NCBI GenBank assembly: GCA_027487695.1
Contig: JAIYDB010000083.1
Coordinates: 1 to 46,726 of the forward strand
DNA from: Cytophagaceae bacterium
GTDB taxonomy: Bacteria; Bacteroidota; Bacteroidia; Cytophagales; Flexibacteraceae
Direction: 5' to 3'
Length of the DNA: 46,726 nt
A program made the position numbers and the translations under genes. Below the pieces are notes generated by a model. That model had not been told where the DNA came from. It searched no databases and was given only the letters and a program-made list of their open reading frames with translations. Positions 43,028 through 46,726 of the stretch are shown piece by piece. How positions within the stretch are numbered: position 1 is the stretch's first letter; every line of letters begins with the position of its first letter.

Positions 43028-43056
43028 CAAAAAACCTGCTTTTCGCAGGTTTTTTG
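43028..43056 (-). terminator. Terminator of the small T9SS protein gene
   Basis: CAAAAAACCTGC (43028-43039) and GCAGGTTTTTTG (43045-43056) form a perfect 12-bp stem around TTTTC. It has A and T runs on both sides and lies about 40 nt after the 43095 stop. Confidence 0.85.
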
Positions 43057-43094: not shown

Positions 43095-43787
43095 TTACTT
43101 AACAATTAAGCGGGTAGTAGCTACGCGCTTGTTGGCTTCTTTAACCGAAACAAAGTATTGCCCATTTGGCAATTCCTTAACGTTGAGGCGTGTACCAGTA
43201 GTACCTTCTTGTAGAGGTGCTTCAAAAACTACCTTGCCTATAATATTTACAACTTCAATAGTTGCAGCCGAACCTGTAACTGGGTAAGAAATACTTACTA
43301 CATCATTAGCAGGATTAGGATAAGCTTTCATTTCTGCTTTAGCTACCCTGTTGCTTACAGAGTTAGGTCTAGTATCGAAAGTAACAATAGTACAAACAGA
43401 ATCGCTCATGTTGCCATCAACAAAAAAGCAATATTTTACACGAGTAACACCAACAGATTCTAAGGGTATGTAATCGGCCTTGAAGCTATTGTTAGATTGG
43501 CCAGGGCTTAAAGCAATAGCATCTGGACTTGTAGTTACACTTGGTGGATAGCAGTTAATTCCCCAACAAAAGTTTGAAAAAGAACCAGGGGCTTGTTGCA
43601 AAATTTGAGAGGTTACTTTAACCGCTAAATCTCGGTTAGAAGTATTAGTTATAATAGAGTTGCTTTCCAATAAGCTTGCGGTAGGCAAACCATTTACAAC
43701 CGGAGCTAGGTTATTAACTCTTAAGCTTTGTGCATTAGCAACTAAGGAGCCGGCTAATACGCATATAACAAGTAATATTTTCTTCAT
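43095..43787 (-). CDS. Small secreted protein with type IX sorting domain
   Basis: The 230-residue protein has a signal peptide (1-19, ending V-A-N-A-Q). A beta-sandwich-like region of about 125 residues follows, with a cysteine-rich block (N-F-C-W-G-I-N-C-Y-P-P, then Y-C-F-F-V-D-G, D-S-V-C) that probably forms disulfides. The last 75 residues are a type A sorting domain (A-Y-P-N-P-A-N-D, L-P-N-G-Q-Y-F-V, ending L-I-V-K). The body resembles other short Bacteroidota type IX cargo of unknown function. ATG 43787 is preferred to an in-frame TTG three codons upstream. The protein is probably at the cell surface or released. Confidence 0.87.
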   Translation of the reverse strand: MKKILLVICVLAGSLVANAQSLRVNNLAPVVNGLPTASLLESNSIITNTSNRDLAVKVTSQILQQAPGSFSNFCWGINCYPPSVTTSPDAIALSPGQSNNSFKADYIPLESVGVTRVKYCFFVDGNMSDSVCTIVTFDTRPNSVSNRVAKAEMKAYPNPANDVVSISYPVTGSAATIEVVNIIGKVVFEAPLQEGTTGTRLNVKELPNGQYFVSVKEANKRVATTRLIVK

Positions 43788-44009: not shown

Positions 44010-44534
44010 ATGAAAAACTTACTCCTTATTTTAGCACTAGCACTTACTTTTAGCAGTGTGCAAGCACAAGAAAAGGCTGCCCGTAAATTACCTGCTGCCG
44101 AAATCAAAACTTTAGATGGTAAAGTAATCAATACCAGTACGTTAAATAACAATGGTAAGCCAGTTATAATCTCCTTTTGGGCTACTTGGTGCAAGCCATG
44201 TATAACTGAGTTGATTAATATAGCCGATAAGTATGAGCAGTGGCAAAAGGAAACAGGAGTAAAGCTAATTGCCATTTCTATTGACGATGCCCGTAACAGT
44301 ATTAAAGTATCGCCATTTGTAAAGGGTAAAGGTTGGGATTACGATGTGTATTTAGATCAAAATCAAGACCTTAAGCGTGCTATGAACGTGAATAACGTGC
44401 CTCACGTTTTCTTGCTTAATGGCAACATGGAAATAGTTTGGCAACATAACAGCTATGCCGAAGGCAGTGAAGACCATCTGTTTGAGTTAGTGAAAAAAGT
44501 AGCAGCAGGCGAACAAATTTCTGCCACTGAATAA
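44010..44534 (+). CDS. TlpA/ResA-like periplasmic thioredoxin
   Basis: The 174-residue protein has a signal peptide (1-20, ending V-Q-A-Q), then a thioredoxin fold with the redox pair Cys61/Cys64 in F-W-A-T-W-C-K-P-C. The cis-proline segment V-N-N-V-P-H-V-F-L-L lies near residue 130. TlpA-like proteins act as thiol reductants or oxidants in the periplasm. ATG 44010 is chosen because it begins the signal peptide. The next two genes, an outer-membrane barrel and a CxxC lipoprotein, follow in the same direction at 52 and 8 nt, suggesting that this thioredoxin serves them. Confidence 0.92.
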   Translation: MKNLLLILALALTFSSVQAQEKAARKLPAAEIKTLDGKVINTSTLNNNGKPVIISFWATWCKPCITELINIADKYEQWQKETGVKLIAISIDDARNSIKVSPFVKGKGWDYDVYLDQNQDLKRAMNVNNVPHVFLLNGNMEIVWQHNSYAEGSEDHLFELVKKVAAGEQISATE

Positions 44535-44563
44535 TTCTGCTTCATTTTCAATATTTTGGTTTT

Positions 44564-44577
44564 TCTCTCTCTCTCTC
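44564..44577 (+). repeat. (TC)7 dinucleotide repeat before the barrel gene
   Basis: Seven uninterrupted TC units end 9 nt before the ATG at 44587, preceded by TTT. The position is the leader or ribosome-entry region of the DUF6029-like gene. Confidence 0.9.
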
Positions 44578-44586
44578 AATAAGTAA

Positions 44587-46221
44587 ATGCGTTATTTATT
44601 TTCAATCCTTTTATTGTTTGCTGCTTCACAGTTCACTTTCGGGCAATCTGAAGGTAATACGCTACAAATTCACGGCGATATTCAATTTGATGCGCAGTAT
44701 TACCGAGCCGATTCTTTAATTGGAGCACCTGAAGTACCAGAAAAAATATTGAGTAATGCTGTAGGTAATTTTATTGCCACTTATGGCAACTTTACCGCTG
44801 GCGTTAGGTATGAAAGTTATTTAGGACCCTTACAGGGAATTGATCCTAGGTATAGAGGTAGCGGCTTCCCTTACAGGTTTGTAACCTATTCGGATGGTAG
44901 GTTTACTTTTACCATAGGTAACTTTTATGAGCAAATAGGCAGCGGTATTATCCTTAGAACTTATGAAGATAGAAACCTAGGTTTTGATAACTCTATAGAT
45001 GGTGTTCGCCTTAAAATGAACGTGATCAAAGGGGTAGCGGTAAAAGGTTTCGTGGGTAGGCAGCGTACTTTCTTCGATTTAAGCCCTGCATTGATTCGCG
45101 GAGCAGATGTAGAAGTTACAGTTAACGATTTAGATTCTGGAATTAATATTCCTGGTCAGTTAATTATTGGTGCTGGGGCAGTAAGCAAATTTCAACGCGA
45201 TGAAGACCCAAGTCTTATATTACCAGAAAATGTTGGTGCTGTTTCAGGGAGGTTTAATTGGGTTTTCCCTAGCTTGAACATTTATGGAGAATATGCTTAC
45301 AAGGCAAACGACCCTAGCTTAACCAATAACTTCCGATACAACAGAGGTGAATCGGCCTTTCTAACAATTTCTTATACTAAAAAGAGATTTGGTCTTTCTG
45401 TTTCAGGCAAGCGCGTAGATAATATGGACTTTAGGGCCGATAGAAATGCAGTAGGTAATAACCTAAACATTAACTATCTGCCTGCCTTAACCAAGCAACA
45501 TACTTACGCCTTAGCAGGTACCATATATCCGTATGCAATACAGCCATTGGGTGAAATGAGCGGGCAAATTGAACTCACCTATAACTTACCTAAAGGAAGT
45601 GCCTTAGGTGGTAAATACGGAACTAGTATTTTAGTAAACCTAAGTGGGGTAAATAATATTCAACGCAATTCCTTGAACGACGATAGCACCACTAGAATTG
45701 GTTATGAGAGTCCGTTTTTTGGTATTGGTAAGCAAAAGTATTTTCGCGATTATAACATAGAAATTAGCCGCAAACTTTCAGATAAGGTAAAGGCATCGGT
45801 AACCTACCTACACCTGTTTTATGATATAGACGTAATTAGAGGCTTAAGCTCACAGGGTACAGTAACGGCAGATATTGCCATTGCCGATGTTACTTGGAAA
45901 GTAAGCAAAAAGCATATCCTTCGTTTTGAAGGGCAAACCCTTCAAACCAAACAAGACCTAGGTTCTTGGGCTATGGGCTTAATAGAGTATAGCTTTGGTT
46001 CAAAATTTTACGCTGCTATTATTGATCAGTATAATTACGGTAATAGTGTAGCAGATCAGCAAATACATTATATCACTGGTAATTTTGGGGTAAACCTAAA
46101 CACTACAAACATCCGTTGTTCGTTTGGTAGGCAAAGAGCAGGCATTGTTTGCGTAGGTGGTGTTTGCCGAAATGTACCAGCAAGTAACGGTGTGCAAATT
46201 TCAATAACTTCAAGCTTCTAG
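44587..46221 (+). CDS. Outer-membrane beta-barrel protein, DUF6029-like
   Basis: The 544-residue protein has a signal peptide (1-19, ending F-T-F-G-Q) and then alternating amphipathic strands to a C-terminal phenylalanine (I-S-I-T-S-S-F), the signature of an outer-membrane barrel. It resembles the DUF6029 family of Bacteroidota, whose function is unknown. Two cysteines near the C terminus (I-V-C-V-G-G-V-C-R) are unusual for a barrel strand and may form a disulfide. That fits its position between a TlpA-like thioredoxin and a CxxC lipoprotein gene, 8 nt apart on the lipoprotein side. A seven-unit TC repeat precedes its start. Confidence 0.8.
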   Translation: MRYLFSILLLFAASQFTFGQSEGNTLQIHGDIQFDAQYYRADSLIGAPEVPEKILSNAVGNFIATYGNFTAGVRYESYLGPLQGIDPRYRGSGFPYRFVTYSDGRFTFTIGNFYEQIGSGIILRTYEDRNLGFDNSIDGVRLKMNVIKGVAVKGFVGRQRTFFDLSPALIRGADVEVTVNDLDSGINIPGQLIIGAGAVSKFQRDEDPSLILPENVGAVSGRFNWVFPSLNIYGEYAYKANDPSLTNNFRYNRGESAFLTISYTKKRFGLSVSGKRVDNMDFRADRNAVGNNLNINYLPALTKQHTYALAGTIYPYAIQPLGEMSGQIELTYNLPKGSALGGKYGTSILVNLSGVNNIQRNSLNDDSTTRIGYESPFFGIGKQKYFRDYNIEISRKLSDKVKASVTYLHLFYDIDVIRGLSSQGTVTADIAIADVTWKVSKKHILRFEGQTLQTKQDLGSWAMGLIEYSFGSKFYAAIIDQYNYGNSVADQQIHYITGNFGVNLNTTNIRCSFGRQRAGIVCVGGVCRNVPASNGVQISITSSF

Positions 46222-46229
46222 AAATCAAT

Positions 46230-46726
46230 ATGAAAAGTATAAAAATTATTGGCTTGTTTATTGCAGGAGCTATTGGCTTCTTTTCTGCCTGCGATTATGT
46301 GGATAACCCTTTTCCAAAAAAGAGGGTAAGAACCTTCGTAGATACCTTCGGTTTAGACAGTGCTGCAAATCTTCAGACAGAACCTGAAGCCTTGAAAAAC
46401 GTATTATTAGAAGATTATACAGGTCACCAATGCGGTAACTGTCCTCGTGCTCATGAAGATGCTGCTGCTTTAGCAGCTACTTATGGCAAAAGGTTAGTAA
46501 TTATGGGTGTTCATGCTGGTGTGTTTTTCACTCGTTTAGATGCTAAATATACTGTAAACTTTCGAACAGAAGCAGGCGATACCTACGAAAGAGAATGGGG
46601 CGTAGAAGCTCTAGGCTTACCACAAGGAATGGTAGATAGAACCCCGCTTTCTGGAACTAGCCCTGTAATTACCAGAGGTAGTTGGCCAACCCAAATTGCA
46701 GCCCAAATAGCTAAGCCAGTAGGCGC
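46230..46726 (+). CDS. Omp28-like lipoprotein with CxxC motif, 3' end missing
   Basis: The frame is open to the window end, so about 165 N-terminal residues are seen. A lipoprotein signal peptide ends at Cys21 (F-F-S-A-C). After a linker comes E-D-Y-T-G-H-Q-C-G-N-C-P-R-A-H, with Cys68 and Cys71 in thioredoxin-like context, then V-I-M-G-V-H-A-G. This is the pattern of Omp28-related outer-membrane lipoproteins of Bacteroidota. The gene starts 8 nt after the barrel gene and is probably co-transcribed. A thiol-redox partner role is inferred from the CxxC and the TlpA gene upstream. Confidence 0.85.
   Translation, partial: MKSIKIIGLFIAGAIGFFSACDYVDNPFPKKRVRTFVDTFGLDSAANLQTEPEALKNVLLEDYTGHQCGNCPRAHEDAAALAATYGKRLVIMGVHAGVFFTRLDAKYTVNFRTEAGDTYEREWGVEALGLPQGMVDRTPLSGTSPVITRGSWPTQIAAQIAKPVG

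Follow-up and report, generated by a model that had tools for sequence, protein, structure and literature searches.

We analysed the 46,726-nt contig JAIYDB010000083.1 of a Cytophagaceae bacterium (assembly GCA_027487695.1; hereafter the window, which is the whole of contig C23 of this 129-contig genome), near whose end three genes follow one another on the plus strand: a TlpA-like thioredoxin (T), a DUF6029 outer-membrane β-barrel (D), and an Omp28 lipoprotein (O), with gaps of 52 nt between T and D and 8 nt between D and O (Table 1). An earlier note on this DNA had described this layout as one thiol module, and its coordinates, spacings, and cysteine motifs (Cys61/Cys64 in T, C-V-G-G-V-C in D, CGNC in O) were all reproduced. 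The set it named seems incomplete, however, in that a divergently encoded gene (S), whose product combines a type IX secretion system (T9SS) sorting domain with a further cysteine pair, seems to belong to it. The contig end cuts O, yet the start of contig C21 overlaps C23 by exactly 119 bases and completes the gene in frame to 296 aa. On C21, a 19-pair hairpin with a tail of thymines starts about 20 nt past the O stop codon (shuffle z −7.3), so the T-D-O transcription unit probably ends there.

Table 1 Features of the thiol gene set in the window, and fusion frames from two further loci (Cys, cysteine; C, L, and A number the contigs, loci, and alignments of this study)
Feature	Position	Strand	Evidence or remark
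T: TlpA/ResA-type thioredoxin, 174 aa, signal peptide by eye	44010..44534	+	Pfam/NCBIfam matches; relative 2m72; alignment A4
T active site Cys61-Lys-Pro-Cys64 (WCKPC)	44190..44201	+	sequence; both Cys invariant in A4 (18 rows)
D: DUF6029 outer-membrane β-barrel, 544 aa, signal peptide by eye	44587..46221	+	PF19494 and structure model
D cysteine pair Cys522-V-G-G-V-Cys527, tip of last hairpin	46150..46167	+	invariant in A1 (20 rows); 102/104 census loci
O: 5′ part (165 codons) of Omp28 lipoprotein gene	46230..46726	+	remainder on contig C21, bases 120-510
O lipobox Cys21	46290..46292	+	aligned 9/9; invariant in A3 (17 rows)
O active-site-like Cys68-Gly-Asn-Cys71 (CGNC)	46431..46442	+	both Cys aligned 9/9; invariant in A3 (17 rows)
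S: divergent gene, ~230 aa, T9SS C-terminal sorting domain and cysteine-pair domain	43095..43787	-	Por_Secre_tail, E 1e-14
S cysteine pair Cys74-WGIN-Cys79 (FCWGINCYPP)	43551..43568	-	aligned in 73/74 relatives; invariant in A5 (22 rows)
Terminator-like hairpin 3′ of S	43028..43056	-	consensus scan
TlpA-DUF6029 fusion frames	L077 5992-8028; L081 5530-7533		Omp28-type gene divergent alongside

We searched an even draw of 392 Bacteroidota genomes for the DUF6029 profile PF19494; 105 of them, the window's own included, gave a match, and about 6 kb on each side of the matches (less at contig ends) was taken from the other 104, yielding 105 loci. One carrier (G279) was dropped as spurious, its match scoring 24.8 bits with our own model and coming with neither the cysteine motif nor T, which left a census of 104 loci from 103 genomes. 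Gene calls were mechanical and ran from the first start codon, so that spacings and overlaps are approximate. A profile of T built from alignment A4 matched at 134 bits or more in all 104 genuine D-carrying (D+) genomes, the window's included, and in none of the 288 others (D−); this threshold was set after the gap between the lowest D+ score (134.6 bits) and the highest D− score (115.7 bits) had been seen, and 14 of the 104 D+ genomes had themselves supplied sequences to the profile. Per genome, the best nine candidates were scored for T and the best six for O.

Within the census, T immediately precedes D, in the same orientation, at 82 of 104 loci—at a spacing of 100 nt or less in 78 of these—is divergent at five, and lies two genes upstream at two. 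In 24 of 26 families, and at 92 of 104 loci overall, it lies near D, overlaps it, or is fused to it, which together with its presence in every D+ genome supports the notion of a single thiol module. Among D+ genomes in which T was not called beside D (14 from the census and two nearer relatives), all 16 contained T at 144–237 bits (five D− control genomes reached 69–85 bits at best): fused in two, overlapping D in one, and elsewhere in 13. For these 16 genomes, we could thus reject the idea that a T missing from beside D has been lost. The fusions (G437 and G343, two species of one genus) are single frames of 678 and 667 aa with T at the N-terminus followed by the whole barrel; because outer-membrane barrels have their N-terminus in the periplasm, T would be kept on that side of the membrane.

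Counting every match to our own T, Omp28, or f43-type models as a thioredoxin-type gene, we found that 91 of 103 loci have one immediately before D (−1) and 73 of 103 have one immediately after it (+1); of 289 genes lying further than four places off, four were of this type. This clustering, along with the co-occurrence counts, rules out chance neighbours. The f43-type model was built from the genes that follow D in family f43, which the +1 count therefore contains by construction; one locus of another family (L152) was in the set scanned, and the accompanying CxxC check accepted the motif anywhere in the protein. A second thioredoxin-type gene, other than at −1, lies within three places of D at 92 of 104 loci. 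Omp28 itself is next downstream of D at 53 of the 104 loci and within three genes at a further 18, and it was detected (A3 profile, E ≤ 1e-15) in 63 of 104 D+ genomes versus one of 288 D− genomes. That one exception, G210 (contigs C10 and C65), has S as well as Omp28, with no D or T found in it, and may have a gap in its assembly or retain the remains of a system otherwise lost. A separate group of 80 named loci—mostly metagenome-assembled genomes (MAGs) plus three Hymenobacter isolates—had T adjacent to D in 75, with two more at contig edges, and Omp28 adjacent in 72; these loci were found partly via the cysteine motif, so their 80/80 motif count is no test of conservation. The genes are regular neighbours that co-occur over many Bacteroidota families, and the check on gene order proposed in the earlier note thus came out in favour of the module.

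Lineage f43 departs from this pattern at the O position. At its 19 loci (L151, L153–L170), the three genes on either side of D included no called Omp28, and the gene after D matched the TlpA model at 17 of them; a TlpA-like gene thus takes the slot of O. In the three f43 loci that we read (L151, L160, L163), D is followed by a lipoprotein with C-x-H-C and then by a second such protein, which in L160 carries a T9SS tail. At a number of loci, T is also preceded by a longer protein that the Omp28 model picks up; in L201, the example checked, this protein has a CPPC motif together with a T9SS tail. As further variants, the 689-aa gene after D in L098 (G282) contains two Omp28-type matches in one open frame, and one genome (L018; G020, contig C200) has, besides its first DUF6029 gene, a more distantly related copy that is followed by an Omp28 gene of its own and preceded by a divergently oriented TlpA gene.

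D matches PF19494 over profile positions 4–538 of 538 (564.7 bits, cut-off 27; E 2.7e-169). Its C-x-x-G-x-C motif near the C-terminus is intact at 102 of 104 census loci and present at all 16 loci of nearer relatives; of the two exceptions, L105 is interrupted by ambiguous bases and has the motif in the open frame that follows, and L107 is truncated, the motif not being found on that strand. No other column of the D alignment (17 proteins) has cysteine in at least 30% of sequences, and in 87 of 102 census proteins the pair represents the only cysteines within the last 480 residues. With the CxxC of T aligned in 15 of 15 proteins and that of O in nine of nine, all three motifs pass the conservation check proposed along with the module. 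The structure model of D (mean pLDDT 90.1, pTM 0.84) has 24 barrel strands by our own count of DSSP elements and places the cysteines at the tip of the last hairpin, between strand segments 507–516/519–523 and 526–530/533–543. With both barrel termini periplasmic, topology reasoning on the model predicts this hairpin to lie on the outer side. The best structural alignments are to FimD/PapC usher pores (3ohn_A: Z 18.4, rmsd 4.4, 374 aligned) and OccK porins (3szv: Z 17.6, rmsd 6.5, 321 aligned), a likeness that suggests at least a similarly sized barrel; AlgE (4afk: Z 15.0, rmsd 6.1, 317 aligned) ranks below both, and the 18-strand fold of Wzi was not among the 50 matches listed, an absence that carries no weight. 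A MAG named Chlorobiota (L252) has T-D with the standard motif and is possibly misnamed or misbinned.

T falls into the AhpC-TSA/Redoxin class (AhpC-TSA: 72.5 bits, Pfam cut-off 26), and its nearest solved structure is 2m72 (E 2.2e-46). Cys61, Cys64, and Pro131 are invariant in A4, the last being presumably the cis-proline, and a glutamate three residues past the CxxC, which we take to be typical of ResA, is kept in at least 90% of the alignment. By sequence class, T is ResA-like. It falls far below the cut-offs of both the ResA model NF002854 (86.2 bits, cut-off 170; E 2.4e-24) and the rhizobial TlpA equivalog NF047696 (39.5 bits, cut-off 230), and was rejected as a member of either. The genome of the window encodes one DsbD-type protein, and a search of it gave no match to VKOR.

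The fragment of O within the window, about half of the gene, had no Pfam match and scored 90.5 bits (E 9.8e-26) against NF033782, whose cut-off is 150. Full-length relatives matched PF11551 (cut-off 34.9) at 103.7 bits (L179) and 67.8 bits (L034), and scored 157.2 and 123.2 bits against NF033782, above and below its cut-off, respectively. The model of the L179 protein (mean pLDDT 87.3) has a thioredoxin fold and aligned with HBP35 of Porphyromonas gingivalis (5y1a: Z 24.6, rmsd 2.9, 224 aligned), with the Omp28 domain 2r2c of the same species (Z 12.8, rmsd 1.8, 102 aligned), and with 2axo (Z 18.3, rmsd 2.8, 200 aligned). Neither L179 nor L034 matched Por_Secre_tail.

In S, the Por_Secre_tail match spans residues 154–227 (55 bits, cut-off 27). 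For the N-terminal domain, Pfam gave no match in any of three proteins and NCBIfam none in the S of the window. Its pair has the form C-x(3-4)-C, and both cysteines were aligned in 73 of 74 relatives from all sets, two frames of at least 420 aa having been left out; a simple motif check failed in three of 35 census matches. Relatives of S lie within four genes of D at 33 of 104 census loci and among none of 289 genes further off. The corresponding figures are six of 16 loci and one of 35 more distant genes for the nearer relatives, and 32 of 80 loci and one of 190 genes for the named loci. Across genomes, S was present in 39 of 80 D+ genomes versus six of 80 D− genomes with the T9SS marker SprA; the former were taken in list order from the 104 (nine had supplied sequences to the S profile), and the latter were hand-picked from 217, with G210, known for its Omp28, included. 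S also accompanies T away from D: in four of six such genomes tested (G248, G264, G214, G164) it is divergent beside T, at roughly 90–135 nt between the matched stretches, and in the other two (G182, G218) it was not beside T. S is thus a probable fourth part of the set. At locus L113 (G123), the motif of the S pair is present three times in a 495-aa open frame and once in a 478-aa frame, the latter also scoring as Omp28-type; these two are genes −3 and −4. SprA itself was found in 103 of 104 D+ and 217 of 288 D− genomes (lists compared by eye), G282 being the only genuine D+ genome without a match; its link to D is weaker and confounded by phylogeny.

The simplest account of four cysteine-pair proteins encoded together is that T provides D with reducing equivalents and, through D or beside it, also the surface proteins O and S. 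S-T-D-O would accordingly constitute a dedicated thiol–disulfide system of the Bacteroidota envelope, a reading to which we give a little less than an even chance. As a ResA/TlpA-type reductase probably fed by a DsbD-like inner-membrane protein, T would work on the invariant C-x-x-G-x-C pair of its own barrel; via D, the equivalents would then be handed to proteins with a thioredoxin fold or a cysteine pair at the outer membrane and surface, namely the lipoprotein O (Omp28, or the TlpA-like protein in f43) and the T9SS-tailed S, both of which would face outwards. The individual steps differ in standing: that T acts on the cysteines of D is probable, and that electrons pass on to O or S is a more tentative proposal. 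Several observations weigh against such a relay. The strongest is that, judging from the model, the cysteines of D look extracellular or placed at the outer pore mouth, so that T could reach them only before insertion of the barrel, as in maturation, or through a wide pore, as in a conduit. Moreover, 41 of 104 D+ genomes are without Omp28 at the threshold used, 12 of 104 loci are without a second thioredoxin-type gene nearby, T is unlinked to D at all eight loci of family f52, and S is found in just 39 of the 80 D+ genomes tested, yet in six of 80 without D. The co-occurrence counts are also raw, uncorrected for the kinship of the genomes, and a hairpin with two cysteines could be a plain structural disulfide. 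In the conduit form of the proposal, T would enter or dock in the 24-strand barrel from the periplasm and reduce the hairpin at its outer mouth, which would in turn serve O and S at the surface; we regard this as unlikely. To our knowledge, it would, if true, be the first route by which reducing equivalents cross the outer membrane through thiol exchange only.

The main rival is that T serves maturation only, as a helper reserved for the folding of D, setting the redox state of its pair in the periplasm before insertion, with O and S as separate clients or passengers. We rate this as possible, though distinctly on the doubtful side. It would account for T tracking D more closely than O does, for T being so often (82 of 104 loci) the gene directly upstream on the same strand, and for the fusion, which places T beside the nascent barrel; it also fits the predicted position of the cysteines at the extracellular tip, where T would have access only before insertion. 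A pair four residues apart needs no isomerase, however, and maturation leaves unexplained both the second thioredoxin-type gene, which is recruited from different families in different lineages at 92 of 104 loci, and the presence of S beside T where D lies elsewhere (four of six genomes tested). Thiol-dependent maturation had been raised in the earlier note with O as the substrate; in that form it is weaker than for D, because T tracks D and 41 of 104 genomes with T and D are without Omp28 at the threshold used.

D could instead be a large pore through which surface lipoproteins or other cargo are secreted, with T keeping thiol-bearing cargo (O, S, or others) reduced for passage, an explanation we consider improbable. 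Its 24 strands and its best alignments with ushers and OccK porins would suit such a role, but a common barrel size proves no function. SprA occurs in 103 of 104 D+ genomes, but also in 217 of 288 without D, and S carries a T9SS tail and hence has its own exporter. The one paper on DUF6029 that we found in the open-licence literature (PMC9603273) ties the family to Wzi-type barrels by HHpred and suggests polysaccharide secretion. Least probable, and disfavoured, is that D is an ordinary porin with a structural disulfide and that the redox genes are nearby for other reasons. Disulfides do occur in outer-membrane proteins, and the hairpin geometry fits a simple one; this would leave aside the association of one specific TlpA ortholog with D (104 of 104 versus 0 of 288 genomes), the T-D fusion, and the four cysteine-pair proteins at one locus.

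T has its family, its CxxC, and its invariant proline in common with the ResA/TlpA/CcmG oxidoreductases of cytochrome c and CuA maturation, but its genomic partner is an outer-membrane barrel rather than a cytochrome or oxidase. The order periplasmic redox protein, barrel, and outer-membrane redox lipoprotein is that of the MtrCAB conduit, of which the conduit form of our proposal would be a dithiol counterpart. Chain B of the Mtr complex 6r2q was among the Foldseek matches of D (E 3.7e-7, rank 27), which does not establish homology of the barrels. We rejected a porin-cytochrome conduit as such, in that the translations of T, D, and O contain no haem-binding CXXCH and have cysteine pairs instead. 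LptD is an outer-membrane barrel whose cysteines matter, four of them forming two interdomain disulfides in a Dsb-dependent manner; D has just one conserved pair, in one hairpin, which set it apart from an LptD-type barrel, and unlike LptD it has its own thioredoxin gene.

O belongs to the same family as P. gingivalis Omp28 (PG2173; domain structure 2r2c). Judging from the order of the locus tags, PG2175-PG2174-PG2173 is presumably the same triad as T-D-O, and 2m72 is presumably PG2175. PG2173 has been listed as an Omp28 lipoprotein (PMC9722745) and PG_2174 as an uncharacterised vesicle protein (PMC4335976); in the available parts of the open-licence literature, we found no function for PG2173, PG2174, or PG2175, and no redox role or barrel partner for Omp28/PG2173. 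HBP35 resembles the O model in combining a thioredoxin domain with a β domain. Its thioredoxin activity reportedly needs the two active-site cysteines, and a surface form has been reported (PMC2907840). A conserved C-terminal domain of HBP35 has been proposed to serve surface attachment, whereas the tested relatives of O are lipoproteins that lack a T9SS sorting domain; we therefore rejected O as an HBP35. The "Omp28-related outer membrane protein" of Paraprevotella, a trypsin-binding T9SS protein with WD40 and Ig-like domains, matches in name only.

What recurs in these genomes is thus a set of DUF6029, Omp28, and one specific thioredoxin, often together with a T9SS-tailed cysteine-pair protein. 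We found no description of S-T-D-O among the open-licence papers listed, and the proposed thiol system, which may carry reducing power to the cell surface, is apparently undescribed. The set gives a testable role to DUF6029, so far without an assigned function, names a likely partner for the Omp28 proteins, whose function is not settled, and provides a concrete setting in which to ask whether thiol reducing power can be moved across the outer membrane by bacteria.

Around the set, the next gene after omp28 follows at a distance of about 265 nt on C21 (L023, 510–775), provided that the join between C23 and C21 is correct. It is presumably rpsH, and we take the genes beyond it to be further ribosomal protein genes; no open frame reading as rpsN or rplE was seen in the gap of about 265 nt. 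The promoter-like motif TAnnTTTG was uninformative, with 61 matches in the window versus 66 expected. On the other side, the terminator-like hairpin 3′ of S has the longest stem of the six found in the scan, for which shuffled sequences gave a mean of 3.6.

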